A model generated the notes under the pieces. That model saw only the letters and a list, made by a program, of their open reading frames with translations. It was not told the origin of the DNA and ran no database searches. Source: Bacteroidota bacterium (GTDB lineage Bacteria; Bacteroidota; Bacteroidia; B-17B0; Aurantibacillaceae). Taken from it: a stretch of 64,000 bases of DNA. Below, piece after piece: positions 2,482-23,776 of this stretch. Within the stretch, counting starts at the first letter, position 1; the number at the start of each line of letters is the position of its first letter. The stretch is taken from positions 1 through 64,000 of the forward strand of contig JAJNBG010000043.1 of assembly GCA_021155905.1 (NCBI GenBank), written 5' to 3'. Made by a program: the position numbers and the translations under genes.

Positions 2482-4749
2482 ATGGCATTTGACATTGAAA
2501 TGATTAAGAAGGTTTACGAAAACATGCCTTCACGTATTGAAGCAGCGCGTAAAGCCTTAGGTCGCCCTTTAACTTTAGCGGAAAAAATCCTTTATTCACA
2601 TTTAGATGTGGCTACCCCGTTACAGGATTACCCTCGCGGAAGTTCATACGTGGATTTTAACCCGGATCGTGTAGCGATGCAGGATGCAACCGCGCAAATG
2701 GCTCTATTGCAATTCATGCAGGCGGGCCGCCCAAAAGTGGCTGTTCCTTCTACGGTTCATTGCGATCACTTAATCACTGCAAAAGACGGTGCCAAAGAAG
2801 ATTTACCTCATGCTCAGGCAGAGAGTAAAGAAGTATTTGACTTCCTTGGATCAGTATCCAATAAATACGGCATCGGTTTCTGGAAACCGGGTGCAGGTAT
2901 TATTCACCAGGTTGTACTGGAGAATTATGCCTTCCCTGGCGGAATGATGATTGGTACCGACTCTCACACTGTAAACGCCGGTGGTTTAGGTATGATTGCT
3001 ATTGGTGTTGGTGGAGCAGATGCCTGTGATGTTATGGCGGGATTGCCATGGGAACTTAAGATGCCAAAATTAATTGGTATCAAGTTAACAGGAAAATTAA
3101 ATGGCTGGACAAGCGCTAAAGACGTTATTTTAAAAGTAGCAGGTATCTTAACTGTAAAAGGCGGAACCGATAAGGTGATTGAATATTTTGGTGAAGGTGC
3201 GATAGCATTAAGCTGTACCGGTAAAGGAACTATTTGTAACATGGGGGCAGAAGTAGGAGCAACCACTTCTACTTTTGGATATGATGAAAGCATGAGCCGT
3301 TACTTAAAAGCTACGGGCCGTGCTGATGTTGCTGCTTTAGCAGATGCTATCAAAGAACATTTGACTGGTGACAAAGAAGTATATGAAAATCCAAGAAATT
3401 ATTTTGATGAAGTTCATGAAATTAATTTATCAGAGTTAGAACCGCATGTTAACGGTCCTTTCACTCCGGATTTAGCGACACCTATTTCTAAATTAAAAGA
3501 AGTGGCTATTGCTAACGGCTGGCCATTGAGAATTGAAGCAGGTTTGATTGGCTCTTGTACCAACTCTTCTTATGAAGATATTTCGCGTGCCGTATCGTTG
3601 GCCAGGCAGGTTTCTGCGAAAGGATTAAAATCCAAAGCGGAATTCATGATTAACCCGGGCTCTGAGCAGATCCGTTATACGATTGAACGTGATGGGTTCC
3701 TGGATGTATTCAACCAGGTTGGTGCTACAGTGTTTACTAACGCTTGCGGACCTTGTATTGGTATGTGGGACAGGGTAGGAGCAGAGAAAAAAGAAAAGAA
3801 CACCATCATTCACTCCTTCAACCGTAACTTCGCCAAGCGTGCTGATGGAAATCCAAATACTTACGCGTTTGTTGCTTCTCCTGAATTAGTAGCAGCAATG
3901 GCCATTTCTGGTGATTTAACTTTTAATCCATTAACAGATACGTTAACTAACGAAAAAGGAGAACAGGTAAAACTGGATGAGCCTACAGGATATGAATTGC
4001 CGCCAAAAGGGTTTGCTGTTGAAGATGCAGGTTTCCAGGCTCCGGCAGCGGATGGAAGCGGAGTTAAAGTTTTGGTTGAACCTACTTCCAAGCGTTTACA
4101 GTTATTGGATCCGTTTACGCCATGGGAAGGTGTTGACTTAAAAGGATTAAAATTGCTGATTAAAGCAAAAGGAAAATGTACAACGGATCATATCTCTATG
4201 GCTGGTCCGTGGTTGAAGTACCGTGGACATTTGGATAACATTTCCAACAATATGTTAATTGGTGCGGTGAATGCTTTTAACGAAAAAACCGATTCTGTTA
4301 AGAACCACTTAACCGGTGGTTACGATTCAGTACCTGCTGTTCAGCGTGCATACAAAGCACAGGGCATTGGCAGTATTGTAGTAGGTGATGAGAACTACGG
4401 TGAAGGATCATCCCGTGAGCATGCAGCGATGGAGCCTCGTCATTTAGGAGTACGTGCGGTATTGGTAAAATCATTTGCCCGTATCCACGAAACCAACTTG
4501 AAGAAACAGGGGATGTTAGGTTTAACCTTCTCGGATGTAGCTGACTATGATAAGATCCGTGAAGACGATATCATCGACATCAACGGCTTAACCAGCTTTG
4601 CACCTGGTGTTCAGTTAACCTTAACATTGAACCATTCAAATGGTAGCAAAGAGGATATCAAAGTAAATCACAGCTATAACGCTCAGCAAATTGAGTGGTT
4701 CAAAGCAGGTGGCGCATTGAATATAATTCGTGCTTCTGTAAGAGCGTAA
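2482..4749 (+). CDS. acn: Aconitate hydratase
   Basis: TCA-cycle enzyme converting citrate to isocitrate through cis-aconitate, cytoplasmic, with a [4Fe-4S] cluster. At 755 residues it has the length of the mitochondrial-type aconitases found in Bacteroidota. The three cluster cysteines are visible: C359 in GSCTNSS, and C422 and C425 in ACGPCIG. The substrate-loop motif [13 protein letters not shown] lies near residue 160, and the swivel domain carries [20 protein letters not shown], near residue 640. The start ATG follows a short leader with no clear Shine-Dalgarno. It is a single-gene unit with its own terminator. Confidence 0.96.
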
Positions 4750-4815: not shown

Positions 4816-4852
4816 AAAATCCTCCTGTTCTACAACAGGGGGATTTTGTTTT
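4816..4852 (+). terminator. Terminator after aconitase
   Basis: An imperfect stem of about 13 bp (AAAATCC-CCTGTT against AACAGG-GGATTTT) around a CTAC loop, followed by GTTTT. It separates aconitase from the cassette-like region that begins just downstream. Confidence 0.75.
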
Positions 4853-4872
4853 AATAAACATTTTGGATACTT

Positions 4873-4958
4873 TTATATGCGCCATCCAATAGCGCTAATC
4901 CTGCAACCGTATGTTGTATATATGCGCTATAAATTAGCGCATATAAGCTAGTTAGGGG
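4873..4958 (+). repeat. attC-like inverted repeat 0 (left edge of cassette array)
   Basis: TTATATGCGC (4873-4882) pairs with GCGCATATAA (4937-4946), and ATAGCGC (4889-4895) pairs with GCGCTAT (4924-4930). This leaves a symmetrical 6-base internal loop on each side, as in the paired-box fold of attC sites. The right arm alone also forms a perfect 11-bp hairpin (4919-4945). The element ends in GTTAGGGG (4951-4958), a good R'-type core. A matching left core upstream of 4873 is not recognisable. Its sequence is unrelated to the other three elements, as is usual for attC sites of different cassettes. Confidence 0.5.
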
Positions 4959-4998
4959 TAATTGTCAGAAAATAACCTTATGAATATAATATTGCCAT

Positions 4999-5685
4999 AT
5001 GAGCCGAAGAGTATTTAATCAACTATTTCATGAATTTAAATGGCAATTTGTAATTGCAATAATTTGGGCAACATATCGAACATACAATAGTGAGAAAGAC
5101 TATTTGTCGACGTTCCTTTCAAATTTTTCTGCTGCTTTCTTTTTCTTAAGTTGGATATTTAGCCAATTACTTAGAGTGCAAAAACAACAAAAACTAGAAA
5201 GCGATTTTACACAAGTTAAGGAGGATATTATGGGTTTTTCTATTGGTAAGAACTCAACTGCTTATTTTATGCCTGTCCAAATGCATCAAAATATTCTAAA
5301 CTTACATATTCATCTTGCAAACAATTCAAAGTATCCTACTTATGATATAAATGGATATTATATAGATCTAGATGAATTAAAGCGAACAAAAGGCCATAAT
5401 TCGAATAAACACAATTTTAAAATTGGCGACATATTTCCAACGCAAGTTTTGACAGATGTATTCATACTTCCTATGCAGGAAAGAGATAGGGTTAACATAG
5501 AAATAAAATACAATACACGGTCGGGTACGTGTTTAGAAGAAATTATTGCAATTAAAGTAGGCGAGAAAATTAACATTGCATTTAAAGTTCATTCGAATAA
5601 CAAGACAGTTACAAATATTCCTTCCGACTTTCCCGGTTTAGACCCTAATAATCCAGAATCAATATTTTTTGATCACAAATTATAA
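4999..5685 (+). CDS. Cassette 1: hypothetical protein with N-terminal membrane helices
   Basis: A 228-residue protein of unknown function. Two hydrophobic stretches (about residues 12-26, FKWQFVIAIIWATY, and 38-58, LSNFSAAFFFLSWIFSQLL) predict a membrane hairpin. A basic/glutamine-rich linker (VQKQQK) follows, then a soluble, probably beta-rich C-terminal domain (residues 70-228). It is the only ORF of the module bounded by the GTTAGGGG core at 4951 and ACCCCTAAC at 5711, and starts 48 bases after the core. Codons are visibly A/T-rich. I did not recognise the family; a two-helix anchor plus sensor-like soluble domain is seen in several defence and stress proteins, but nothing here proves such a role. 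Confidence 0.7.
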   Translation: MSRRVFNQLFHEFKWQFVIAIIWATYRTYNSEKDYLSTFLSNFSAAFFFLSWIFSQLLRVQKQQKLESDFTQVKEDIMGFSIGKNSTAYFMPVQMHQNILNLHIHLANNSKYPTYDINGYYIDLDELKRTKGHNSNKHNFKIGDIFPTQVLTDVFILPMQERDRVNIEIKYNTRSGTCLEEIIAIKVGEKINIAFKVHSNNKTVTNIPSDFPGLDPNNPESIFFDHKL

Positions 5686-5710
5686 TATCACAATTCTAGA
5701 AAAAACAACA

Positions 5711-5901
5711 ACCCCTAACAGCACCTACCAAAAATGCGGGCATTGAGCTTCGGCATTTGCAAAAGCGGTAGACTCCCGATAGCTATCGGGATAATTAATT
5801 TTCGCTTTGCAAATGGCCAATAAACATTTAGCTTTGTTAGTAAGCTTTTCGGTAGAAAACGGTTTCAAACCCGCACTTCTGGTAGCTGCAAAACGTTAAT
5901 A
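5711..5901 (+). repeat. attC-like inverted repeat 1
   Basis: A roughly 190-base element. Left core ACCCCTAAC (5711-5719), right core GTTAATA (5895-5901). Outer arms: GCACCTACCA (5721-5730) against TGGTAGCTGC (5880-5889), 9 of 10 paired, and TGCGGG (5735-5740) against CCCGCA (5870-5875). Inner arms: GCATTTGCAAAAGCG (5753-5767) against CGCTTTGCAAATGGC (5803-5817). The loop of the inner hairpin contains the dispersed palindrome at 5774-5791. The segments CACCTACCAAAA, TGCGGGCATT, AGCTTCGGCATTTGCAAAA and ATAAACATTTAGCTTTGTTAG are shared with the element at 6906. Confidence 0.65.
5774..5791. repeat. Perfect 18-bp palindrome TCCCGATAGCTATCGGGA
   Basis: The same dispersed palindrome as at 2432-2449, here perfect. 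It occupies the tip of the inner hairpin of attC-like repeat 1. The sister element at 6906 has only a short unrelated sequence at this position, so it appears to be an insertion into the loop. Confidence 0.7.
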
Positions 5902-5923
5902 ATAAATAAAATAACAACACAGC

Positions 5924-6874
5924 TTGACAAAAAATCGAGCAGGACAAATTCAAATACAAATGCCGACACTCTTAGAGTATTTTAATAATGACTTCGCTCT
6001 TGGCGTCAGTTTAGACAGTAAAAGAAAATTCACCTTTCAAAAAATTAACGAACATAAAAGAGTTGTTGGACAAGGTGAAATCGAAATACTTGAAAGAATA
6101 CATTTGCATGCCGCAACATCAGTAAGACTACCCACCTACTATATTCCATTCGACGAAAACACGTTCGATATTATTTGCGAAACATTAAAGATTTTAGGAA
6201 AACCCAATCCAAACAGCTTGAATTTAGACTTTATTGTTGGGTTCACTGGCGATATTAAAGTTGGTAACGAGAAAACAAGATATACTTCAAGGGTGTATTT
6301 TTATATTGAAAATCTGTTAAAAGATGATGAACTTCAAAAGTTGGATAAAATATGCAAATCAAAAGATATTTTTATCACTCTGAGGAGCGCTGAATACGTA
6401 AAAATTAAAATGAACACAGAAAGACCTAAAGCATTTATCTCCCACGATTCAAGAGATAAAGATTTGATAGCAAAAAATGTTGCACAGGGATTAAGTTCTC
6501 GACTTTGCCCAGTTTGGTATGATGAGTATTCCCTTAAAATTGGTGATAGTTTGCGCGAATCAATTGAAAAGGGAATAAAAGAAGCACATAAATGTGTTCT
6601 CATTCTTACTCCAAATTATCTAAACAACTCCGGATGGGGTAAAACCGAATTCAACTCTATTTTCACTCGTGAGTTAATAAAAAATGAAAAGGTTGTTCTT
6701 CCAATTTGGTATGGGGTGACTAAGGAACAAGTTTATGATTATTCGCCCTCTCTTGTAGACACCTTTGCATTAACGTGGCCGACACAAGAGAATAAAACAG
6801 AAGCTGAATACAAACAAGAAGTCGAACAATTAATAAGCAGATTGCATACTGCTTTGACGGAACCAACAGTATAA
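5924..6874 (+). CDS. Cassette 2: TIR-domain protein
   Basis: A 316-residue soluble protein. Residues 1-160 are an uncharacterised alpha/beta region (LDFIVGFTGDIKVG, VYFYIENLL). Residues 167-316 are a TIR domain: KAFISHDSRDKD (box 1), VWYDEYSLKIGDS (box 2, BB loop), VLILTPNYLNNSGWGKTEF (box 3 region). E242 in GKTEF is in the position of the catalytic glutamate of NAD-cleaving TIR enzymes. Bacterial TIR proteins commonly deplete NAD or make cyclic ADP-ribose signals in antiphage defence, so a defence role is plausible but unproven. The reading frame opens with TTG (5924); an ATG at 5960 is an alternative start. It is the only gene between the cores at 5895 and 6906. Confidence 0.82.
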   Translation: MTKNRAGQIQIQMPTLLEYFNNDFALGVSLDSKRKFTFQKINEHKRVVGQGEIEILERIHLHAATSVRLPTYYIPFDENTFDIICETLKILGKPNPNSLNLDFIVGFTGDIKVGNEKTRYTSRVYFYIENLLKDDELQKLDKICKSKDIFITLRSAEYVKIKMNTERPKAFISHDSRDKDLIAKNVAQGLSSRLCPVWYDEYSLKIGDSLRESIEKGIKEAHKCVLILTPNYLNNSGWGKTEFNSIFTRELIKNEKVVLPIWYGVTKEQVYDYSPSLVDTFALTWPTQENKTEAEYKQEVEQLISRLHTALTEPTV

Positions 6875-6905
6875 GGTCGACACAAAACTGTGTGTGGCGC
6901 ACAAC

Positions 6906-7084
6906 TTATAACAGCACCTACCAAAATGCGGGCATTCAGCTTCGGCATTTGCAAAAAGCGGTAGACAAATAGTTGATTTTCGCTTTGCAAATGGCTAATA
7001 AACATTTAGCTTTGTTAGGAAACATTTCGGTAGAGAGCGGTTTCAAAGCCCAAACTGAAATTTAGCTGTAATCCGTTAGGCACC
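6906..7084 (+). repeat. attC-like inverted repeat 2
   Basis: A sister copy of the 5711 element. Left core TTATAAC (6906-6912), then the shared GCACCTACCA and TGCGGGCATT blocks, the inner hairpin arms GCATTTGCAAAAAGCG and CGCTTTGCAAATGGC, and the shared ATAAACATTTAGCTTTGTTAG block. Right core GTTAGGC (7075-7081), an exact fit to GTTRRRY. The right outer arm (AAACTGAAATTTAGCTG) differs from repeat 1, as expected if the last bases belong to a different cassette junction. Confidence 0.65.
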
Positions 7085-7089
7085 AATAC

Positions 7090-7647
7090 ATGAAAAGACT
7101 AATTATAATTTATTTGACATCAATTCTCCTTTCATCATGTGGGACCGGTTTTGTTGTTAGAAAATATACCGAAGGTCGTTTCCATGAACATATCGACAAT
7201 GCTGCGCAAGAATCGGTATTCAAAGACACTATCATTATCAAGAAATTTAAAAAAGGCTCTAGCAGTGTGACGAGAATAAAGTCCAATGGTGGAGATGTTA
7301 CGATAGAGGTTGACGAAAATAACAGTCCGTTGACAAATCAAATATTAGACGCCGTTAAATTAAGTTCGGCCGAGGAAAAGCATAAGGTCGCTGGGATTAA
7401 AAGTATTGAAAAGCACGCCCGGATTTCTAGAGCTATCTTTTGGTTACCGGGTTTTGGTTTTTTTCATAATGTTTCCTACCTAAGAAAAGCGAATGAAGTT
7501 GAATCTAAATATAATGTTGACTTAAGCACTGCAAAAAAAACATTGCGGAAATCCGTATACTTGTCTATTCCTTTTTTTTTACTGGGAATTATTTTTGTGT
7601 TAGTAGTCTTTCTGATCGCTATATCAGGCATTTCAGTAGTTCGCTAA
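7090..7647 (+). CDS. Cassette 3: small lipoprotein-like protein with C-terminal membrane helix
   Basis: A 185-residue protein. The N-terminus is a lipoprotein signal (ILLSSC, lipid-modified cysteine C17) followed by RKYTEGRFHEH, resembling the RKY-G-(F/Y) start of many Bacteroidota small lipoproteins. A second hydrophobic stretch (about residues 158-182, LSIPFFLLGIIFVLVVFLIAI) predicts a C-terminal membrane helix, an odd combination for a lipoprotein. The start codon lies 9 bases after the GTTAGGC core at 7075-7081, a very short leader typical of cassette genes. No family was recognised. Confidence 0.7.
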   Translation: MKRLIIIYLTSILLSSCGTGFVVRKYTEGRFHEHIDNAAQESVFKDTIIIKKFKKGSSSVTRIKSNGGDVTIEVDENNSPLTNQILDAVKLSSAEEKHKVAGIKSIEKHARISRAIFWLPGFGFFHNVSYLRKANEVESKYNVDLSTAKKTLRKSVYLSIPFFLLGIIFVLVVFLIAISGISVVR

Positions 7648-7659
7648 AGATAATGTACT

Positions 7660-7770
7660 GGTGCTAATAGCACCTACAGTAATGCGGGCAGATACTTCGA
7701 CTTCGCTCAGTACAGGCGTCTGAGCATTTGCAAGCGGTAGACAATTAATCATTTTTGCTACAAATCAATA
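7660..7770 (+). repeat. Eroded attC-like repeat 3
   Basis: Starts GGTGCTAAT (7660-7668), complementary to the first bases of its own cassette (TTAGGCACC at 7076-7084). It retains AGCACCTAC, ATGCGGGCA and GCATTTGCAAGCGGTAGACAA. The right half and a GTTRRRY core are missing, and a REP-like sequence (7695-7717) has replaced the CTTCGGC segment. It is probably no longer a complete site. Confidence 0.5.
7695..7717. repeat. REP-like element within eroded repeat 3
   Basis: CTTCGACTTCGCTCAGTACAGGC, a sequence type commonly dispersed in Bacteroidota intergenic DNA. It interrupts the conserved part of attC-like repeat 3. Confidence 0.5.
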
Positions 7771-7774
7771 AATT

Positions 7775-8203
7775 ATGACAGACAAAACTGAAACTGATAT
7801 TGTAAAATTCTTCCACGGACGAGACGCTTCTTTAAGACTATTTAAACGTCTTCGTAAACTAATCGAACGAAACCGCTCTCCGAAAATTGAAGTTTCCAAG
7901 ACACAAATATCGTTTGGAGAGGAATATAAATACATTTGGGTTTGGCTTCCACAGACTTGGATAAAAAAACGTTCTGAAAGCTCCATTACCCTGACTATTG
8001 TGACAGGTAAAAAAAATCATAGCGACAAAATAGAGGAATCAGTTCAGCCAAAAAAAGGTTATTGGACACATCATATAATAATTGAAAATGGCAAGGACAT
8101 TGACAAAGAAATTGAGGATTTGATTCAGGAAAGCATTAGTTTTTATTTAGAGCGTTTAGAACATAAGCGACAGCAAAAGACTAAGAAAAAGGCCAGTACA
8201 TAA
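7775..8203 (+). CDS. Cassette 4: hypothetical basic protein
   Basis: A 142-residue soluble protein without signal peptide or membrane segments, of unknown function. Charged helices flank a beta-rich centre (IEVSKTQISFG, YKYIWVWLPQTW, SSITLTIVTG), and the C-terminus is a lysine-rich helix (LEHKRQQKTKKKAST). It is the sole ORF between eroded repeat 3 and the remnant at 8201. The AT-rich composition matches the other cassette genes. Confidence 0.65.
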   Translation: MTDKTETDIVKFFHGRDASLRLFKRLRKLIERNRSPKIEVSKTQISFGEEYKYIWVWLPQTWIKKRSESSITLTIVTGKKNHSDKIEESVQPKKGYWTHHIIIENGKDIDKEIEDLIQESISFYLERLEHKRQQKTKKKAST

Positions 8204-8226
8204 ACAGCGCCTGGTTTAATGCGGGC
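8201..8226 (+). repeat. Remnant of an attC-like left arm (repeat 4)
   Basis: TAAACAGCGCCTGGTTTAATGCGGGC aligns with the TAACAGCACCTACCAAAATGCGGGC left arm of repeats 1 and 2, with several substitutions. No right arm is visible. The sequence then runs into unrelated DNA and a REP-like element. This marks the right edge of the array. Confidence 0.4.
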
Positions 8227-8394
8227 TGATGACAGGTTTCATATGTGGGGCATAGTTTCATTCGGCGGCCTTTCACATTTATGTACTTTGTCGTGCCTCC
8301 TCGCAATGACCTAAGAATTTTTTACAAATTATTCTGTCACCAATTGAAAATGGATCGTTATAAGGGACGAATAATAATTTGCTCCCAATGATTT
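8227..8394. other. Intergenic stretch with REP-like element
   Basis: No gene. TCGTGCCTCCTCGCAATGAC at 8291-8310 recurs with one change at 61312-61331 and is a REP-type dispersed repeat. The remainder shows no clear promoter consensus. Confidence 0.55.
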
Positions 8395-9519
8395 ATGACT
8401 ACGATTAAGCTGTGCGTTTTGTTATGTATGAGCTATTGTTTTACCAGCGCTCAGAACCTTGTTCCTGATTCGAGTTTCGAGAAGAATAAATTTGTACCGA
8501 TGGACTTTTCATCCCTGGGAGCCTCACACGTATGGAGTATTCCCAGCAGGGGAACATCGGATCTGTTTTGTAAATGTGATAGAAAAACCAAAGAGAATTC
8601 AGACAAAATTTATTCTGAAGTAGATGTTCCGCAAAATAACATGGGTTATCAAAACCCGCACTCCGGCACCTGCTATGTCGGCTTGTTTGTCTTTTCACAC
8701 GGCAATTACAGGGAGTATTTACAAACCGCTCTTAACGAGCCCTTAAACAAGAACAAAACCTATCTTTTTACTATGTATATAAGCCTGGCGGATTATTCAA
8801 GTATTTCCATTGACAAGATTGGAGTTTGTTTTATTCCCGGTAAAGCCGATTATCAATCGTCCGATGTAATTACAGATCTAAGCCCTGTTTATATGAGTAT
8901 AGAACGTGAGGTTGGAAATGATATAAAAAACTGGCACCGATTATCTGTTACCTATAAAGCAATGGGTGGCGAACAGTATCTTTTAATTGGCAGTTTTGTG
9001 ATCAATCAAATCAGGAGAACAAAGCTAAAAGCTCCCAAGGAAGTAAAATCCCGCATCAATCAGAAGATTGAGCGAGATGCATATTATTTTATTGATGATG
9101 TGAGCCTTGTTGAAACAGATCTAAAGGAGCCAATCGATACAATGAATGTGGTTCCCGATACGCTGAAAGAAATTCATCCGAACAGTTTAATTATTTTGAA
9201 GAACGTTTTATTCCGAACCGGTGAAGCTGCTCTGCTAAAGGCATCGCGCTCTGAATTAGATTTAATTGTTGACTATCTTAAAAAGAATAAGGATAAAAAT
9301 ATTGAAATTTCCGGCCATACAGATAATTCCGGAAATGAGAAAAGTAACAGAAAGCTTTCTACAGGAAGAGCAAAAGCAGTAGCCGATTATTTGGAATTAA
9401 GTGGAATAGATAGGGCCCGGATAATATATACCGGGTGTGGAAGTTCAAGACCGGTCGCCAACAATGAGACCGATGAGGGCAAGCAGCAAAACAGGAGAGT
9501 TGAATTTATTCTCAGGTAA
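8395..9519 (+). CDS. OmpA-family outer-membrane protein
   Basis: A 374-residue exported protein. Signal peptide about residues 1-19 (LCVLLCMSYCFTSAQ). Residues 20-240 form a beta-rich domain opening with NLVPDSSFEKN, like galactose-binding/jelly-roll modules that precede OmpA domains in Bacteroidota. Residues 262-374 are an OmpA/MotB peptidoglycan-binding domain: VLFRTGEAALL, ISGHTDNSGN, LSTGRAKAVADYL and a C-terminal NRRVEFIL. The OmpA part anchors to peptidoglycan via diaminopimelate-binding D and R residues, both visible in GHTDNSG and NRRVEF. The ligand of the N-terminal domain is unknown. Confidence 0.88.
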   Translation: MTTIKLCVLLCMSYCFTSAQNLVPDSSFEKNKFVPMDFSSLGASHVWSIPSRGTSDLFCKCDRKTKENSDKIYSEVDVPQNNMGYQNPHSGTCYVGLFVFSHGNYREYLQTALNEPLNKNKTYLFTMYISLADYSSISIDKIGVCFIPGKADYQSSDVITDLSPVYMSIEREVGNDIKNWHRLSVTYKAMGGEQYLLIGSFVINQIRRTKLKAPKEVKSRINQKIERDAYYFIDDVSLVETDLKEPIDTMNVVPDTLKEIHPNSLIILKNVLFRTGEAALLKASRSELDLIVDYLKKNKDKNIEISGHTDNSGNEKSNRKLSTGRAKAVADYLELSGIDRARIIYTGCGSSRPVANNETDEGKQQNRRVEFILR

Positions 9520-10250: not shown

Positions 10251-10817
10251 TTAGTCAACAATAAACTCTACGTTAGCCAGGAGTTGGACTCCATCACCAA
10301 CCACGCTGTTAGGTGCACCAGCGCCAACCTTGAAATCCTGACGGTTCAGGCTTCCTGAAATAGTAAAGCCAACAACATATTTTTTTGTTGTTGGGTTGAG
10401 GAATTTTCCGTAAGCCACGTCCAGAAAAATGGGTTTGGTAATACCGTGGATGGTGATTTCGCCATTTAATTTATAAACTGTTGAACTGACTTTTTTAAAA
10501 GAAGTACTTTTAAACATAATGGTGGGATACTTAGCTTCGTCAAACCAGTCGGCACTCCTGAGATCCTTGTCTCTGACATCATTGTCAGTATCAATAGAAT
10601 TGACGGCTGCGGTCATTACAATCACGGCGTCGCTCAAGTCTTCTTTTTTAGATGTTAATGTTGCCACTACTTCTTTAAAATGCCCATCTACCTGCAAATG
10701 ATAAAAGTTTGTAGCGATGAAGCCCACACGTGTATGGTTCTTGTCAAGTGTATAGGTTTGCGCATATGTATACAATGAGATAATGCAAACAACTGCTGTG
10801 ATAATTATTTTTTTCAT
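10251..10817 (-). CDS. YceI family periplasmic protein, copy 2
   Basis: A 188-residue YceI-like protein: a lipocalin-type barrel that in the family binds polyisoprenoid lipids in the periplasm. Family motifs: TYTLDKNHTRVGF near the mature N-terminus, DKDLRSADWFDEAKYPTI in the middle, GEITIHGITKPI, and LNRQDFKVG. Signal peptide MKKIIITAVVCIISLYTYA; the start at 10817 is chosen because a start 15 codons upstream would bury that signal. It shares this organisation with the neighbouring copy (10855-11424), to which it is clearly paralogous. The two probably form one operon. Confidence 0.9.
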   Translation of the reverse strand: MKKIIITAVVCIISLYTYAQTYTLDKNHTRVGFIATNFYHLQVDGHFKEVVATLTSKKEDLSDAVIVMTAAVNSIDTDNDVRDKDLRSADWFDEAKYPTIMFKSTSFKKVSSTVYKLNGEITIHGITKPIFLDVAYGKFLNPTTKKYVVGFTISGSLNRQDFKVGAGAPNSVVGDGVQLLANVEFIVD

Positions 10818-10854
10818 TTCGGTTTTAATTTTATGATTCGTCTTAAAAAATTCT

Positions 10855-11424
10855 TTAGTCAACTATAAATCCTGCACTGGATCTTAGTTCAATTTCGTCA
10901 CCAACAATGGCACTGGCAGGACCTGTTCCGACCTGGAAATCTTGTCGGTTAAGCTTGCCTGTAACTGTAAATCCTATAGTGTTTTTTTTTGTCGCAGGAT
11001 TTATCTCTTTACCATTATAAACCACCTGGAATGTAATTGGTTTTGTAATTCCATGAATCGTGATATTTCCTGTTAGCTCATAAGTATTTCCTCCTGTTTT
11101 TTTGAATGAAGTGCTTTTAAAATTAATAGTAGGATATTTATTGGCATCAAGCCAGTTTTCGCTTCTAAGGTCTTTGTCCCGCGTATCATTGTCCGTATCA
11201 ATGGTGCTGACATTAGTGGTCATTTCAATGACGGCATCGGTATAATCTTCTTTTTTAGAGGTCATGGTTGCCGAAACGTCTTTAAATCGGCCATCTACCT
11301 TAGATATTCCGAAGTGGGTAGCGCTAAATCCAACCCGGGTGTGATTTTTATCTACTGTATAAGTTTGTGCCCGTGTTATCGAAACTATTCCGCATGCGAC
11401 AATCGTAAAAAGTAATGTTTTCAT
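10855..11424 (-). CDS. YceI family periplasmic protein, copy 1
   Basis: A 189-residue YceI family protein with signal peptide MKTLLFTIVACGIVSITRA. It matches its downstream paralogue block by block: TYTVDKNHTRVGFSA, SKKEDYTDAVIEM, DTDNDTRDKDLRSENWL, GNITIHGITKPI, LNRQDFQVG. It is the first gene of the pair, 37 bases from the next start. The expected role is binding an isoprenoid or other hydrophobic ligand in the periplasm; the ligand is not deducible. Confidence 0.9.
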   Translation of the reverse strand: MKTLLFTIVACGIVSITRAQTYTVDKNHTRVGFSATHFGISKVDGRFKDVSATMTSKKEDYTDAVIEMTTNVSTIDTDNDTRDKDLRSENWLDANKYPTINFKSTSFKKTGGNTYELTGNITIHGITKPITFQVVYNGKEINPATKKNTIGFTVTGKLNRQDFQVGTGPASAIVGDEIELRSSAGFIVD

Positions 11425-16922: not shown

Positions 16923-17630
16923 ATGACTGTACAAGCAATCCTTGAGGAACTGGAAGAAAAAGGAAATCCGAATATCAAAAAAATATTATTGAAACATGGG
17001 GTCAAAGAACCCTTCTTTGGTGCGAAAATAGAAGATATGAAAGTGATCCAAAAGCGCGTGAAGAAAGATTACCAACTATCAAAAGATCTTTATGCTACCG
17101 GTAATTCAGACGCCATGTACCTGGCAGGACTTATCGCGGATGAAAGCAAGATGACAAAAAAAGACCTTGCCACCTGGGTAAAGCAGGCTGAATCTCCCAA
17201 CATCTGCGATTATACAGTGCCATGGATCGCCGCCGAAAGTCAGCATGGTTTTGAACTGGCTCTGGAATGGATCGAATCAAAAGAATCCTATATTGCTGCT
17301 GCAGGCTGGTCAACCTTGTGCAGTGTGGTTGCCATTAAAGCGGATGATGAACTCGATATGTCATTGCTAAAAACTTTACTGGCACGGGTAGAAAAAGAAA
17401 TACATAAAGCCGATAACCACGTCAGGTCACGCATGAATATGTTTGTTATTTCCGTGGGTTCATATGTCGCTTCATTAACCGATAAAGCCATCGCGATTGC
17501 TCAGAAAATAGGAACAGTGAAAGTAGATGTGGGAGATACTTCCTGCAAGGTTCCAGGCGCCGTGGATTATATTAATAAAGTAAAGAATAAAGGCGCGATA
17601 GGTAAAAAGAAAAAAATGGCAAGATGTTAA
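16923..17630 (+). CDS. DNA alkylation repair protein (AlkD-like)
   Basis: A 235-residue all-helical HEAT-repeat protein of the DNA alkylation repair (AlkC/AlkD) family. Members of this fold remove or bind alkylated bases. Typical segments: GVKEPFFGAKIEDMKVIQKR, LYATGNSDAMYLAGLIAD, SPNICDYTVPWIAAES and GWSTLCSVVAIK. The lysine-rich C-terminus (GKKKKMARC) may help DNA contact. ATG 16923 is preferred over a TTG six bases earlier. It follows the SRPBCC gene by 33 bases, likely in the same transcript. Confidence 0.85.
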   Translation: MTVQAILEELEEKGNPNIKKILLKHGVKEPFFGAKIEDMKVIQKRVKKDYQLSKDLYATGNSDAMYLAGLIADESKMTKKDLATWVKQAESPNICDYTVPWIAAESQHGFELALEWIESKESYIAAAGWSTLCSVVAIKADDELDMSLLKTLLARVEKEIHKADNHVRSRMNMFVISVGSYVASLTDKAIAIAQKIGTVKVDVGDTSCKVPGAVDYINKVKNKGAIGKKKKMARC

Positions 17631-17666: not shown

Positions 17667-18566
17667 ATGAAAGTTCAGGTACCAATAGTTACAGATCGTC
17701 TTTTAATTGAACCGTTAACTCAGGGTGACAACCATTTCATTTATGAATTGGTAAACACCAGGGAATGGAAGCAGTTTATTGGCGACAGAAATATAGCTTC
17801 CCGGGAAGAAGCGCTGGTTTATATTCAAAAAATTCTTGGTAACCGGGATATTTCTTATTGGGTGGTAAAACTTCCCCAAAAAAAGCAAAGCATAGGTGTG
17901 ATTACTTTTATCAAGCGGCTTTATCTGGAGTATCATGATATTGGCTTTGCATTTCTTCCGGAATATGGAAAGAAGGGATATGCCTATGAAGCCGTAAATT
18001 CTGTTTTACATAATCTGTTGCCTGGATATGAGTCGCCAAAAATTTTTGCAACGACAGTCCCTGAAAATGAAAATTCAATTAAACTATTGCATAAGCTGGG
18101 CATGCATTTCAAAAAAGAGATTGAGGTGGCTGAAGAAAAATTACATGTCTATTCAGTGCCGAGCGATCGTTTAAGAATCAATGAAGTTGTAAAAGCTTTT
18201 TTCGGGATATTCGCAAATATCAATCATAAACAGCCTGACTGGAGTTTACTTAACCATCTTTGCATTCCTGAAACCATATTGATTAGTAAAAAAGATTCGG
18301 ACCAGGCGGTTTATGATTTAAAATCTTTTGTGGAGCCGCGAAAAAAAATCCTGACGGATGGCACACTGACGGAATTTGAGGAACATGAAATAAGTTCAGA
18401 GACACAAATCGTGAGTAATATTGCACAAAGGCATTCCAGGTATCAAAAGAGCGGGGTTATGGACAAAAAGCCCTTTGTAGAACTGGGAACTAAGTTTTTT
18501 CAATTTGTGAAAACACAAGAGGGGTGGAAAATAACCTCCGTCATTTGGGAAGACGACAGAAGTTAA
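17667..18566 (+). CDS. GNAT acetyltransferase fused to an NTF2-like domain
   Basis: A 299-residue two-domain protein. Residues 1-165 are a RimJ/RimL-type GNAT N-acetyltransferase: TDRLLIEPL, ISYWVVKLP, DIGFAFLPEYGKKGYAYEA (acetyl-CoA loop) and ENENSIKLLHKLGM. Residues 172-299 resemble a SnoaL/NTF2-like cone (VVKAFFGIFANINHKQPDW, FEEHEISSETQIVSNIAQRHSR, FVKTQEGWKITSVIWED). The fusion is not the usual architecture of either domain. It may acetylate a small molecule bound or sensed by the NTF2 domain; the substrate is unknown. Confidence 0.82.
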   Translation: MKVQVPIVTDRLLIEPLTQGDNHFIYELVNTREWKQFIGDRNIASREEALVYIQKILGNRDISYWVVKLPQKKQSIGVITFIKRLYLEYHDIGFAFLPEYGKKGYAYEAVNSVLHNLLPGYESPKIFATTVPENENSIKLLHKLGMHFKKEIEVAEEKLHVYSVPSDRLRINEVVKAFFGIFANINHKQPDWSLLNHLCIPETILISKKDSDQAVYDLKSFVEPRKKILTDGTLTEFEEHEISSETQIVSNIAQRHSRYQKSGVMDKKPFVELGTKFFQFVKTQEGWKITSVIWEDDRS

Positions 18567-18567
18567 T

Positions 18568-18924
18568 CTACTTGTATTTCGCTGACCATTCGATGGCTTC
18601 CTTTAAACTGGTAAACATTTTAGAGGGAATTTTCGGAGGATTAACAAAGAGAAAAAAATTGACCATTACCTTTTCAAAAAAATTCTCCACCACAAAGCAG
18701 CCTGATTTCATTCCTTGTATGCCTTCTTTTTTAAGGTACTCCCTTACTTCTCGGGATTCTACTTTGAATCCGTTGGCGATGAGGATTAACGGGTAATCTT
18801 TTCCGTTTTGCAGTTTAAGACGTTCGTCTACCATTTCTTTGGCTAATTCCATTGTAAACTCAAGGCCTTTTTTAAACTCAGCGATGATCAGGCCATCCGA
18901 TAATTTCATTTTTACGTGTTCCAT
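18568..18924 (-). CDS. STAS/SpoIIAA-like protein
   Basis: A 118-residue soluble protein of the STAS-like (SpoIIAA/SEC14-type) fold common in Bacteroidota. Layout: strand-rich N-terminus (MKLSDGLIIAEF), central ILIANGFKVESREVREYL, and the C-terminal family signature FTSLKEAIEWSAKY. It resembles the protein at 21735 in domain order and in ending with a lysine/tryptophan helix. It is convergent with the GNAT fusion gene, with a single base between the stops. Confidence 0.65.
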   Translation of the reverse strand: MEHVKMKLSDGLIIAEFKKGLEFTMELAKEMVDERLKLQNGKDYPLILIANGFKVESREVREYLKKEGIQGMKSGCFVVENFFEKVMVNFFLFVNPPKIPSKMFTSLKEAIEWSAKYK

Positions 18925-19153
18925 ACTCCCTGAATTATTGTTCTCAAATGAATTTCTTCCACGATGAAGAGTTCTTAAAGATCATGTAAACATACAAAAT
19001 AGCCCAATTGCCACAGTAATTTTAACATAGAATACCCTAGGAGCATGATCAAATTAAATTTTGGTCCTTCTGTTTTTTGTAAACCCCGGGATTAATTCTT
19101 AAAGTAAATGTTTAATTTTGGATGGATTCCAATTAGAAAGAGATAGAAATAAT
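18925..19153. other. Intergenic region upstream of the LOG gene
   Basis: No gene seen. TAATTTTG at 19113-19120 fits the TAnnTTTG -7 element and lies 33 bases before the LOG start codon; no well-spaced TTG element. Confidence 0.4.
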
Positions 19154-19729
19154 ATGAAAAGAATTACAGTTTTTTGCGGTTCAAGTAATGGTAATGAAAA
19201 TTCCTTTCGCTTAAACGCTGAAATGCTTGGGAAACAATTAGCTAAACAGCATATAGGATTGGTTTATGGTGGTGCAAAAGTAGGGTTAATGGGTGCAGTT
19301 GCTGATGGCGCTCTTAAAGAACGAGGTGAAGTGATTGGTGTTCTCCCCAATTTCTTAAGATCCAAAGAAATTGCTCATAGCGGATTAAGTGAGTTGATTC
19401 TGGTAGAAAGTATGCATGAGCGAAAAATGCATGAGTTGTCTGATGGCATTATTGCATTGCCCGGAGGTTTTGGGACCATGGAGGAACTATTTGAAATGCT
19501 GACATGGGCCCAACTTGGTCTTCATAAAAAGCCGATTGGGATTCTCAATGTGAATGGTTTTTATGACCCTCTTTTAACAATGATCGGAACTATGGTTGAG
19601 AAAGGTTTTTTGAAAGAGGTGAATGAGAGTATGTTATTAGTAAGTGATAACATTGATGACCTGCTTCATCAGATGAAAAATTACGATCCGCCAACGGTTC
19701 CTAAATGGATTGATCCTGAAACAACCTGA
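19154..19729 (+). CDS. LOG family protein (TIGR00730 type)
   Basis: A 191-residue Rossmann-fold protein of the LOG/lysine-decarboxylase-like family. The signature PGGFGTMEELFEMLTWAQ (PGGxGTxxE) forms the nucleotide site, and FCGSSNGN and VYGGAKVGLMG are the N-terminal loop motifs. Family members cleave nucleoside 5'-monophosphates to base and ribose-5-phosphate (cytokinin-activating phosphoribohydrolase activity). ATG 19154 was chosen over TTG 19118, which overlaps a -7 promoter box. Likely in one transcript with the next two small genes. Confidence 0.9.
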   Translation: MKRITVFCGSSNGNENSFRLNAEMLGKQLAKQHIGLVYGGAKVGLMGAVADGALKERGEVIGVLPNFLRSKEIAHSGLSELILVESMHERKMHELSDGIIALPGGFGTMEELFEMLTWAQLGLHKKPIGILNVNGFYDPLLTMIGTMVEKGFLKEVNESMLLVSDNIDDLLHQMKNYDPPTVPKWIDPETT

Positions 19730-19751
19730 CCATTAATTAAAAATAATAAGC

Positions 19752-20018
19752 ATGTCATTTTACAAGGTATTAAAACGTGAAGCAGAAGTAGCTTTCTCAA
19801 AACATTCACAACCGGTTTGGTTCAGAGTTTTGAAATACCTGGTGTTAGGTTGCCTGGTTTATTTTTTGTGGGGAACTAATTTGCTTTGGATAGTATCAGC
19901 GGTATTATTGGTCTTGTCTTTGTCGCTCCATTTTTGGTATAGGTATAAAACAAAGGGCTGGACACAAAGTTATGGCTTATGGAAATATGACAAAATGAAT
20001 CACCATCAAAATAAATAA
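19752..20018 (+). CDS. Small membrane protein
   Basis: An 88-residue protein with two closely spaced membrane helices (VLKYLVLGCLVYFLWG and LLWIVSAVLLVLSLSLHFWY), an amphipathic N-terminus and a charged C-terminal tail. Function unknown. It lies 22 bases after LOG and 5 bases before the next gene, so probably co-transcribed. Confidence 0.7.
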   Translation: MSFYKVLKREAEVAFSKHSQPVWFRVLKYLVLGCLVYFLWGTNLLWIVSAVLLVLSLSLHFWYRYKTKGWTQSYGLWKYDKMNHHQNK

Positions 20019-20342: not shown

Positions 20343-21641
20343 TTACTGCAGAATCAGCTTAGTAACATATTTTTTTTCGTTGCTGGAAATTTCAGCAAAG
20401 TAAACACCTTTAGGCTGGTCACTTAAATCAATCTTCCCGCCTTTTAAGAATGTTCTACTCATGATGCAGTTGCCAAGGATATCATATACACATACGTCTT
20501 GCTCAACAGCTATATTATTTAAGCTGATCTGAAAGATTCCACAAGAAGGATTAGGAAATGCCGTACAAGACTGATGGTTAAATTCCGTCATGGCCGTTGC
20601 AATAGAAGTCGAATATTTACCAAGGTAAGCGTCAGTAGCAATAGAGCTGGTTAATGTATTGTTACCCAGAATGATGGTCCCTGTAAAAATACCGGTAAAG
20701 TAGATGGCGTCCGTTGTTTTTTTGCTGGTGGAATAGGGACTCAACGGATAATGAATGGATGAGATAAGTTGTCCGCTGCTTGTGTATTTATACATGCTAT
20801 CATAGGCGCATAAATATACCCCATCATGGGTGACCGATATATTTCTTGAACCTCGTGGATCTATCCATTGACATTGCCCTGTCGGATTGATTTTGACGGT
20901 GTAGTAACCATACACGTTATTTTGTGGATACAACGTGTCACACATGGTACGCATTTGAGATGAGTAATGGCCAGTAAAGTATACATTGTTAGCCGTATCA
21001 AAATCAATATCATCAATTGCAGCCGGATTATGTCCTGTTCCTCCATCATAATATTCCCACAAAAAATTACCGATAGAATCGTATTTGGCAATGTAACCAT
21101 CAAATACTTTATTGCCTGTAAGCACTAAGGATCCATTAAAATCTGTTCTGATTTTATGTATGGAAATATTAGGAGCAATGATCGAAGAGATATGATTACC
21201 ATTAAGGTCATATCTTAAAATGGTATCAAGTCCGCATGACGCATATAAATTATTTCGATAAACAGTAATGGAAGAGAGGTTTCCTGATTTAGTCCAGGCT
21301 ACATTTCCGATACTATCATATTTTCTTAGTACCGTCTTGTTTTTGATTCTAAGAAGGGCATAGCAGTTTTCAGAATTATCCGTGGCAAAGTCATATAGAT
21401 TGCATGCGGTATCAGTTATCAAGAGCATTAGATTTCCATTCAGGTCGTATTTTCCGATAAATACATCAGAGGGAGTCACACCGTAATAACCCGTTTCGCC
21501 GGCTATAAAAATGTTCGCAGAAGTCTTATGCAGGAACTTGCCATAATCCCAATGATGGATGGAAATATTTTTTGCCCAGTTCCATTGCGCGGAACTGCTT
21601 AATGAAAAGAGCACAAAAAAGAAAAGTGCAATCGTTCTCAT
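20343..21641 (-). CDS. T9SS-sorted secreted beta-propeller-like protein
   Basis: A 432-residue protein. Signal peptide (IALFFFVLFSLSSSAQ). Residues 20-345 contain repeats built on (K/R)YD-x-x-GN (KYDLNGNL, KYDSIGNV, RYDLNGNH, KYDSIGNFLWEY), as in SBBP-type beta-propellers. Residues 358-432 are a type A T9SS C-terminal sorting domain (FPNPSCGIFQI, VYDILGNCI, LSDQPKGVYFAEI, TKLILQ). Export by T9SS and surface attachment or release are expected. No enzymatic motif seen. Confidence 0.88.
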   Translation of the reverse strand: MRTIALFFFVLFSLSSSAQWNWAKNISIHHWDYGKFLHKTSANIFIAGETGYYGVTPSDVFIGKYDLNGNLMLLITDTACNLYDFATDNSENCYALLRIKNKTVLRKYDSIGNVAWTKSGNLSSITVYRNNLYASCGLDTILRYDLNGNHISSIIAPNISIHKIRTDFNGSLVLTGNKVFDGYIAKYDSIGNFLWEYYDGGTGHNPAAIDDIDFDTANNVYFTGHYSSQMRTMCDTLYPQNNVYGYYTVKINPTGQCQWIDPRGSRNISVTHDGVYLCAYDSMYKYTSSGQLISSIHYPLSPYSTSKKTTDAIYFTGIFTGTIILGNNTLTSSIATDAYLGKYSTSIATAMTEFNHQSCTAFPNPSCGIFQISLNNIAVEQDVCVYDILGNCIMSRTFLKGGKIDLSDQPKGVYFAEISSNEKKYVTKLILQ

Positions 21642-21734
21642 GAGTTTGCTTTTTAAACAAAAGTACCCTGAGTATAATTTAAGTAAAGTTTAATTCGGTA
21701 AGACAGGATTATTGATCGCTATGATTGTTGCAGG

Positions 21735-22130
21735 TTACAGATGTTCCAGGATCCATTTTTTTGCATCATTTTTATTTTCAAAGGTGGCAATAGGCATAAT
21801 GTCCCCCGGATTCAAAGTCGACAGTATAGAACTGATCATTTTACCGATTGGTGAATTGGGGATAAAAGCAACGGCTTTAAATAATTTCGGATATTCTTTG
21901 ATGGTAAACCTGATCATTTTGATATCATAGGCTTTCGTAAATGAGTTATCCAAAATGAGCCCAACTCTTTTATCTTCCGAGAAACTTTTAATTAACTCAA
22001 GATCTCCTTTGAGAGTCTCAATACTTCTGATTCCTTCAGGTTTGGATATGGCATGTAAAATTCCGTCCGTATCAAACCAGAAATCTGCAAGTTGTCCGTG
22101 GTAAATTTTCTTTTTTTCCATTATATCCAT
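21735..22130 (-). CDS. STAS/SpoIIAA-like protein
   Basis: A roughly 131-residue protein of the same STAS-like group as 18568-18924: N-terminal strands (YHGQLADFWFDTDGILH), RVGLILDNSF, YPKLFKAVAFI and a terminal ATFENKNDAKKWILEHL helix. ATG 22130 or 22121 (MEKKKIYHG) is more plausible than the far upstream ATG at 22181, whose extra 17 residues have no family counterpart. Function in the family is unclear. Confidence 0.6.
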   Translation of the reverse strand: MDIMEKKKIYHGQLADFWFDTDGILHAISKPEGIRSIETLKGDLELIKSFSEDKRVGLILDNSFTKAYDIKMIRFTIKEYPKLFKAVAFIPNSPIGKMISSILSTLNPGDIMPIATFENKNDAKKWILEHL

Positions 22131-22459
22131 AGAACCAAATGTAGAACTGTTCGTTAAATCTTTTGAAAAAAAAACTTGCACATTTAATATATGCTATTTG
22201 GTTTAATCTAAATCGATATTTTAGCAAATAATTCTCCAAAAATAATCCAGATTATTCCGCTTCAATGTCTGACTTACTGCGCTTTAGATGAACGATTGAA
22301 ATTTACTGTCGAAAAATGAAATAAATAGGATGAAATTCTTAAAAGGTGAAGTTTTGAACAATTTGGACTTCCGGGTTTTTTGGCTTGACGGCTTAAAAAA
22401 TGGAAAAAGACTGTTCCTGTTTTAAAAACCCCCAATTTTTATGTGATGAAAAAAACAGT
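22131..22459. other. Non-coding interval
   Basis: About 330 bases, AT-rich, without a convincing ORF, promoter or terminator that I can support. It separates the STAS-like gene from the end of the polysaccharide operon. Confidence 0.5.
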
Positions 22460-23776
22460 TTAATTAATCCCCGCTAATTTCATGGCATCCAGTTTTATTG
22501 CCGAATCTAAAGGGATTTGAAGGTCCTGCGACTTTTTTGTGGATTTTTTCAAAAGAACCGGTTTTTCACGAATCTGTTTTTCGAATTGTTTTATGCTTTT
22601 ATTTCTTTCAACACGCGCATAGTAGGTTTTCGGATTAGTATATAATTCATAGGCATCATCAATGAATGCATTTGAAAAACTTGGTAAATTCCCATCTGAA
22701 TATAATAGCATGATGACCTGGTTACTCTCAATACTTTGTTTCAGATCAAGCTGCCAAACTTCCACTTTTTCAGTTGCACTAGGGTTTGGAATGATCTTGT
22801 TGTAATAATACCAGAACTGCCCACCGGCAAAGCAATTTTGTCCAACACCCATATAAACCGGTCCATACCAATAGCTATCGGAAATGGTTAATACACGGGT
22901 GGTATTTTTTATGGAGTCCTGTTCAAACATAATATCCGGATAGGCAAGTTTCATGTTTTGTTCAGGGTTCTTATACAGGTTCATGCTTTTTAACACATCC
23001 GCATCACGGCTGCGTGCTGTATCCACCACGTCAATTTTATTCCAAACAATATCCGGAAGATCGCAGTGATGAAGTTTCTCGATATGACCTATAATGGTAT
23101 CCACCGCTAAGCACTCACCGTAATAGCTCCAATGATGACCAAACTTGGGAAAGAGCGGGTATGGTGTGTTTGGCTTTAATTTTTGAAAGTAAGCTTTCAG
23201 GTCAAGTACATTGAGTCCAAGCCTTTTTGCGTTTTCAGAAAAGGCCTCGTAATTTGTACGACCAGGCGCATGCTTGTATTTGTCTTCGATTTGTTCTATG
23301 CAATATTCGCCTTTGCCCGGGGCAAAAACCAATAAAAGGTCAATGCCTTTTTTCTTTAATGAATCCTGAATCACCTTTGTTTTGTCCAGTTTGCTTTTTA
23401 TTTTTTCTTCGCCAACAAAGTCATCACCAAATGCGGAATAAATATAACCTTCGCTATACACATAATTATCCTTTCCTAAAACAAACGAATTCACCCTGAT
23501 CTGATTGAATGTTTTGAAATAAAACTGGTTATTGAGTCTGACAAATTTTTCTTTAAATGCCCAGTGATCATTATTATAATCATCTTTTAGTGATTGGTAC
23601 TCGCCACTAAACCACATGCTTTTATCCTTCTTCAATAATGAATCCGGATTCACATTATTAATAACAATCCCGGTCAGATTAGGTTTATTGTCTTTTTTTA
23701 AAAAGCCGGCCAGCATGGGATAAAAAATCGCAGCAAATGCAACCCATACAAAAGCGTTATATTTTTTTTTCTTCAT
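22460..23776 (-). CDS. AlgX/AlgJ-like SGNH acetyltransferase component
   Basis: A 438-residue membrane-anchored periplasmic protein. Residues 7-24 are a hydrophobic anchor. Residues 75-330 fit the AlgX/AlgJ SGNH-hydrolase-like domain: LGKDNYVYSEGYI (block I), LLVFAPGKGEYC, FPKFGHHWSYYGE (the HxW catalytic block) and TRVLTISDSYW (nucleophile-serine block). In alginate systems such proteins work with an MBOAT partner to O-acetylate the exported polymer. The MBOAT gene is immediately upstream with a 3-base gap, so the pairing is strong. A paralogue lies at 57939. Confidence 0.85.
   Translation of the reverse strand: MKKKKYNAFVWVAFAAIFYPMLAGFLKKDNKPNLTGIVINNVNPDSLLKKDKSMWFSGEYQSLKDDYNNDHWAFKEKFVRLNNQFYFKTFNQIRVNSFVLGKDNYVYSEGYIYSAFGDDFVGEEKIKSKLDKTKVIQDSLKKKGIDLLLVFAPGKGEYCIEQIEDKYKHAPGRTNYEAFSENAKRLGLNVLDLKAYFQKLKPNTPYPLFPKFGHHWSYYGECLAVDTIIGHIEKLHHCDLPDIVWNKIDVVDTARSRDADVLKSMNLYKNPEQNMKLAYPDIMFEQDSIKNTTRVLTISDSYWYGPVYMGVGQNCFAGGQFWYYYNKIIPNPSATEKVEVWQLDLKQSIESNQVIMLLYSDGNLPSFSNAFIDDAYELYTNPKTYYARVERNKSIKQFEKQIREKPVLLKKSTKKSQDLQIPLDSAIKLDAMKLAGIN

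Follow-up and report, generated by a model that had tools for sequence, protein, structure and literature searches.

Here we analyse a stretch of 64,000 nucleotides (nt), called the window below, from the genome of a Bacteroidota bacterium (assembly GCA_021155905.1, contig JAJNBG010000043.1, our C2), in which four single-gene modules, all on the plus strand, are separated by members of a repeat family, an arrangement claimed by an initial annotation and borne out by the list of open reading frames (ORFs) and a repeat search. Judging from sequence, this array is very probably a recombinase-less satellite of an integron-like cassette system whose tyrosine recombinase is XerA-like and lacks the patch specific to the integron integrase IntI. 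We further consider it likely that such recombinases, with an attI of their own and long, asymmetric attC sites, form a second integron lineage that captures and shuffles cassettes across Bacteroidia chromosomes and plasmids. The evidence lies in the parts and their order, in the complementarity of cassette ends, in the covariation of the attC hairpin and in a break at GTT between close relatives, all of which are read directly from the sequences. The initial annotation had proposed either a cluster of attC sites lacking an integron integrase (CALIN) of a Bacteroidota-specific type or another cassette-transposing system, and our results support that proposal.

A platform of this kind, as on contig C48 of the same genome, would run in one direction from a recombinase gene through a promoter-like motif and an attI-like site to single-gene cassettes, each ending in an attC-like site. 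A cassette would exit as a circle, its own ends meeting there to make a complete attC, one strand of which would fold to a hairpin, the 4-nt asymmetry of its arms perhaps setting the strand. This hairpin would be the substrate that the recombinase joins to a GTT core, either that of attI or that of a further attC, and transcription of the cassette would start from the promoter beside attI. The C48 recombinase may act on the window array in trans.

The recombinase and its attI-like site

No match to the IntI family model exceeded its cut-off anywhere in the genome, and on the window contig there was no match at all. The best partial match lies on C48, about 700 nt upstream of a copy of the repeat, where the gene for a tyrosine recombinase of 378 residues is followed, in the same direction, by a TATATTTG motif, inverted repeats, GGTATATGCTAGTTAGG, a first cassette and finally an attC-like site. 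The description of the array as integrase-less thus holds for the window and not for the genome, and the recombinase that had been expected elsewhere in the genome does head the C48 array, although it lacks the integron-specific patch. The C48 attC-like site runs past the contig end; as the last 66 letters of C48 are, by eye, the first 66 of C19, the array probably continues on C19 (the contigs were left unjoined). Two other simple tyrosine recombinases are encoded in the genome, on C15 and C57.

The C48 protein belongs to the Phage_integrase family (PF00589, 1.2e-41) and has a SAM-like N-terminal domain; R235, K260, H325, R328, H351 and Y360, which we take to be the catalytic residues, are intact and invariant among 21 sequences. 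It passes the model NF040815 (XerA / 'integron integrase'; score 226.2, cut-off 220) and stays below the cut-off of TIGR02249 (integrase_gron; 207 bits, cut-off 265). Its profile match to IntI4 (2a3v) falls into two pieces, with residues 182-240 of 2a3v opposite profile positions 281-297 only and the N-terminal part of the recombinase outside the match. The same shortening is seen in the gap between two landmarks, which measures 60-61 residues in 106 of 115 recombinase rows (these include loci fetched twice) and 102 in all 26 IntI measured among 30 fetched from the same phylum. Other values occur in eight rows, perhaps from a misplaced landmark, and one row was unmeasured; with a stricter landmark pattern, 25 of the 30 IntI were measurable, all at 102, and 77 of the 115 recombinase rows, all at 60-61. 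The IntI-specific patch is hence absent from the array recombinase.

In a tree of 80 proteins, IntI formed one group with modest support (83/69) and 31 of 48 recombinase rows another (100/97); the 48 rows are not a single clade (two changes), and the rooting is unsure, with long Xer branches. The AlphaFold model of one relative, L113 (mean pLDDT 81.4, pTM 0.51, domain arrangement unsure), has a predicted extra N-terminal beta-beta-alpha-beta-beta-alpha domain of about 60 residues and a short loop at the gap of the IntI4 match. Foldseek placed IntI4 (2a3v) and XerA (5hxy) on top with this model, both at a TM-score of 0.42 by query length, suggesting the same fold for both and offering no choice between them.

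The core that follows the C48 recombinase links it to the window. The core RTATAWGCTAGTTAGG occurs without mismatch at two places in the genome, C2:4941 (window 4941-4956) and C48:39642 beside the recombinase, with one mismatch on contig C27 and with two mismatches at two further places. Upstream of the C27 core (L041, minus strand) a decayed recombinase has kept its start and its last residues only; cassettes follow the core, and by eye this array is an intermediate between the full platform and the window array. As an attI-like core heads the window array with no recombinase beside it, the gene was either lost there or never present. The attI-like site (4876-4956) lay within the range of the initial annotation, which did not recognise it.

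A scan of named genomes gave at least 575 relatives of the recombinase, of which the best 80 were kept; these are mostly from Bacteroidota, with one or two each from Ignavibacteria, Spirochaetes, Nitrospirae, WOR-3 and Deltaproteobacteria. Within the same family, all 87 genomes match the recombinase at E<=1e-20, and in 48 of them the best E-value is below 1e-90. Among sampled Bacteroidia, 116 of 395 genomes and 66 of 197 genera hold a profile match at E<=1e-100, an upper guess for arrays, as this threshold may admit divergent members without them. We fetched 129 loci of relatives, 111 after removal of duplicates, and compared the 79 close ones (at least 45% identity and at least 130 nt after the stop codon) with random windows of the same loci. 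The attI core stands behind the recombinase in 65 of the 79, against 140 of 2080 control windows, and in 47 of these 65 the GTT lies 90-104 nt after the stop. A putative site for cassette entry is found beside the recombinase, its core recurring at a fixed place, which bears out the core conservation that had been expected. Because AGTT and one of six A/T-rich words are part of the search pattern, the invariance of those letters is partly built in; controls were held to the same pattern. The motif TAnnTTTG, the Bacteroidetes promoter element, begins no more than 60 nt behind the stop or lies wholly within that distance of it in 31 of the 65 loci and in 88 of 3250 control windows.

Nine of the 14 remaining close loci (L085, L087, L062, L103, L126, L061, L077, L082 and L094) carry a core 327-942 nt on, past one more gene; this count has no control, a chance core not being rare at such distances, and the surroundings of the nine cores are attI-like by eye. 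In several of them the insert is, by eye, a gene of the ORF6N or BRO type that may regulate the system.

attC-like sites, cassette ends and the break at GTT

The repeat is common to 5711-5902 and 6906-7084 (89% over 82 nt), and incomplete copies of it lie at 7665 and 8202. A genome search with 6900-7090 found strong copies on C19, C43, C27, C48 and C4 and weaker ones on other contigs; given strong copies on five other contigs, the window repeat is not due to chance. As anticipated, the copies elsewhere flank different co-oriented ORFs, and 23 of the 27 ORFs of at least 100 amino acids (aa) in the genome's own arrays and their edges lie on the array strand. The copies are attC-like by our own descriptors. 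Only one of the two window copies first described as intact is so, that at 5712-5902; the copy at 6906-7084 is a hybrid of a CTACC-type 5' half and an ATTTAG-type 3' half, both known from relatives (by eye), and its outer arms are unpaired because the halves come from two arm types. For comparison with the fold z-scores in the table, that of a Flavobacterium attC site is -2.27.

For a covariation analysis, 15 attC sites from this and related genomes, window site 1 included, were picked by sequence similarity. The hairpin is conserved while its sequence varies: 93.2% of the alignment cells are paired, 37 cells are doubly changed, a number matched by none of 500 shuffles, and the covariation score of 0.209 compares with 0.059 or less when slid.

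Excision as circles would require the letters behind the starting GTT to complement those before the closing AAC. Over 16 cassettes of this genome, hand-picked because both ends were readable (one C19 cassette being treated as a fused pair, and three C43 cassettes that have lost the attC 5' half, window cassette 4 and the C4 cassettes being left out), the mean score was 7.56 for a cassette's own ends and 3.80 for other ends, and none of 20000 permutations gave as high a sum. For the two ends of a single repeat copy, which belong to neighbouring cassettes, the score was 4.0. End complementarity hence tracks the cassette and not the repeat copy, which a dispersed repeat would leave unexplained. 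The initial annotation had claimed such complementarity for the first three window modules; modules 1 and 3 show it (scores 10 and 7.5, respectively), and module 2 does not (score 2).

The same rule predicts sites in relatives. Starting from attI in loci with at least 1.2 kb of sequence, we searched for a complementary end, then paired arms, then a new GTT. In 30 of 40 loci the start letters led to a predicted first attC, against 130 of 1441 trials with wrong start letters, and in Flavobacterium limicola seven consecutive steps could be followed, each with five of five letters. Of the 54 exact steps, 43 have a 3'-arm spacer 4 nt longer than the 5'-arm spacer, as do 24 of 130 controls. The elements had been put at about 180-190 bases, which suits this genome and some others of the family (about 175-200), whereas 41 of the 54 exact sites in relatives' loci measure 125-140 nt (control, 21 of 130). 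The core is not the classical one: GTTRRRY fits 9 of 65 attI-side starts and 3 of 13 of the genome's own cassettes.

Close relatives part at the predicted crossover. Two complete Chryseobacterium plasmids carry the recombinase and, in the 29 kb stretches compared, share 86-90% identity over 7.7 kb of backbone, recombinase and attI. Their alignment stops at 15130 in both, the final letter of GTT, beyond which there is no match between the two plasmids, either in DNA at E<=1e-10 or among ORFs of at least 100 aa at E<=1e-5. Likewise, among 68 attI sites, all 11 pairs with an identity of 78% or more in the 45 nt before GTT break there, with mean identity falling from 0.89 before to 0.32 after it and reaching 0.5 after it in none.

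What lies behind these sites differs from array to array, and the contents in other species are largely unrelated, as the initial annotation would have it. The arrays consist of single, co-oriented ORFs, and among 461 ORFs from 100 loci behind recombinases and the genome's own arrays only six cross-locus pairs reach 45% identity, five of them between genes directly behind the recombinase. When the window array was compared as DNA with 87 genomes of the family, 36 matched, its own included; the listed matches outside its own array all fall inside attC sites and in no gene (with three candidates per genome, weaker matches were possibly missed).

Further elements stand in one plasmid array (L250). 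A mini-cassette of 172 nt that contains no gene and has complementary ends of 14 nt (GTTGGGAAAAATCG) is complete at 17223-17394 and 19604-19775 and occurs at two further places (22673 and 15128), as if self-spreading. A group II intron on the minus strand (20701-22560; RF02001 and RF00029 matches, with a second RF02001 match at 27333-27504) apparently lies, by eye, inside the R'' core of an attC-like site (CCAGGTAA ... CAGTATTTCTACAAGCGGG); group IIC introns are associated with classical integrons. An IS110-family transposase gene (18278-19279) stands directly 3' of an attC-like R'' core (CTGGTAACA), and IS110 relatives that target attC exist in classical integrons.

The array in the window

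The array is flanked on the left by an aconitase-like gene (2482-4749, named by eye) and on the right by an OmpA-domain gene (8395-9519). It is a small, partly decayed satellite without a recombinase; probably it lost its recombinase, or attI and cassettes moved there, and decay is ongoing.

Table 1. Features of the cassette array (window coordinates).
Feature	Position	Strand	Remarks
Promoter-like stretch, weak	4844..4875	+	TTTTG ... TACTTTTA; putative, imperfect match to the TAnnTTTG that relatives have here; precedes attI-like site
attI-like site	4876..4956	+	three predicted hairpins and core ATATAAGCTAGTTAGG; predicted crossover at GTT 4951-4953; fold z -2.97
Cassette 1	4951..5719	+	start GTTAGGGG, end CCCCTAAC; 5/5 self-complementary; chain followed from attI
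Cassette 1 gene	4999..5685	+	228 aa; no family above cut-off
attC-like site 1	5712..5902	+	intact; R'' 5712-5719, R' GTT 5895-5897; arms with 4-nt asymmetry; strand fold z -5.38
Cassette 2	5895..6912	+	ends non-complementary
Cassette 2 gene	5924..6874	+	316 aa; TIR domain at C-terminus
attC-like site 2	6905..7084	+	hybrid, probably non-functional; z -2.09
Cassette 3	7075..7668	+	start GTTAGGCACC, end GGTGCTAAT; score equalled by 0/15 other ends
Cassette 3 gene	7090..7647	+	185 aa; lipoprotein-like; no Pfam match; NCBIfam lipoprotein matches all below cut-off
attC-like site 3	7665..7759	+	remnant, 3' half gone
Cassette 4 gene	7775..8203	+	142 aa; DUF5655 (1.5e-12)
attC-like site 4	8202..8227	+	remnant of 5' half, array end; 69% over 26 nt

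The protein of cassette 2 matches TIR_2 at 1.4e-16 and, among PADLOC models, PDC-S66 best (1.3e-38) and ThsB at 1.7e-22, making its gene a candidate anti-phage defence gene carried as a cassette; at E<=1e-25 it has a single relative outside its own genome among the 87 family genomes. Two Rfam matches over the array, mir-9416 (31.5 of 100), which spans the attI hairpins, and SpF11 (26.1 of 54), are below the gathering score and were taken as chance. Elsewhere in the window (10251-11424), two adjoining minus-strand proteins of 203 and 189 aa resemble tandem copies by eye.

Competing explanations and significance

Might the array be an ordinary CALIN, its cassettes those of a classical IntI integron whose attC sites are divergent and whose integrase was lost or fell into an assembly gap? 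The genome is 94% complete, and classical IntI is common elsewhere in the phylum, scoring over the cut-off in 70 of 247 genomes of a phylum sample; yet none was found over the cut-off in this genome, and of the 71 sampled genomes with an IntI match a single one belongs to the same class (whose total in the sample is unlisted). A different recombinase, moreover, heads both the C48 array and the predicted first cassette of those 30 of 40 testable loci, few cassette starts (9 of 65) fit GTTRRRY, and IntI and the main array recombinases form separate tree groups, so that we regard this origin as very unlikely. We think it just as improbable that an integrative element has the recombinase as its integrase and simply uses GTT as its own attachment site, with the arrays growing by other means. 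Such a role would agree with the BRO- or ORF6N-type genes seen by eye beside some members and with the omission of the N-terminal part from the IntI4 match, but behind attI there is no single element with a distant attachment site; the genes in the row there are largely unrelated and have self-complementary ends, and similarity at GTT is lost on one side only, next to a conserved recombinase. The least credible alternative, which we give hardly any weight, is that the repeats are dispersed repetitive extragenic palindromic (REP) or miniature inverted-repeat transposable element (MITE)-like elements that lie between unrelated genes without any cassette exchange. They are numerous, their inner part is well conserved and one gene-less copy recurs in a plasmid array; complementarity, however, belongs to the cassette and not to the repeat copy, and the sites lie behind attI and break at GTT.

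Several observations weigh against an integron-like system with a satellite in the window. Below 45% identity only 7 of 25 loci have the attI core, five of the 79 close loci have none within 1 kb, and the first chain step is absent in 10 of 40 loci; the strict search found no step on C27 or on C48, where the end of the contig truncates the attC. Pairs of the attC hairpin changed on both sides number 10, a weaker count that was reached in 18 of 500 shuffles, and the 11 pairs of attI sites share members and are hence not independent. In the window itself, module 2 fails the complementarity test and the arms of attC-like site 2 are unpaired. No empty site was found for the locus either: the OmpA-like neighbour has relatives in other genomes, but the best of them (65%, genome G072) has no aconitase gene in the 10.5 kb fetched.

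The proposed integron-like system with a patch-less recombinase can be set beside known systems. With IntI integrons (sedentary chromosomal ones; IntI4, 2a3v) it shares a tyrosine recombinase, attI, co-oriented single-gene cassettes, imperfect hairpin attC sites with asymmetric arms and cassette-specific R''/R' letters, a promoter-like motif at attI and plasmid-borne forms. The recombinase here, unlike IntI, has no patch, and the model of its relative shows an additional N-terminal domain (about 60 residues); attI follows the recombinase gene and has the same direction, whereas the usual IntI layout is divergent; the core is GTTR without RRY, GTTRRRY being the R' core consensus of IntI cassettes; and attC, set against that of IntI integrons, is mostly 125-140 nt long, up to about 200, with a 4-nt arm asymmetry. 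The window array resembles a CALIN in having attC-like sites without an adjoining recombinase, although an attI-like site is retained and the attC sites are those of another system. Among simple tyrosine recombinases, XerA (5hxy, NF040815) is the best solved relative by sequence and serves a housekeeping role, dimer resolution at the dif site; unlike XerA, the recombinase here has an N-terminal extension and an adjoining cassette array. In its build the system works like an integron, while its recombinase falls outside IntI and its core differs; its activity would be as we have outlined.

IntegronFinder 2.0 counts 93% of complete integrons in gamma-Proteobacteria and, in the passages available, names one complete integron for Bacteroidetes proper, in Salinibacter (PMC9024848). 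Since classical IntI is common in other classes of our phylum sample, this gap is one of the window's class. IntegronFinder separates IntI from other recombinases by requiring the IntI-specific domain, which the accessible text calls necessary for integron recombination (PMC9668308). An 'integron-like' subgroup of recombinases has been described, with no Bacteroidota attI, attC or cassette array in the available part of that account (PMC8138268). In open-access literature, preprints aside, we found no description of a patch-less cassette system, and an account elsewhere is possible.

If the system works as read here, Bacteroidia would have a widespread capture platform of their own, holding a mostly unknown gene pool that includes candidate phage-defence genes. 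Recombination of hairpin attC sites would then be possible without the IntI patch deemed essential, allowing a direct test of the role of the patch, and integron finders that demand this patch would miss the patch-less lineage. The attI and attC descriptors together provide a means to find such cassettes in existing genome sequences.

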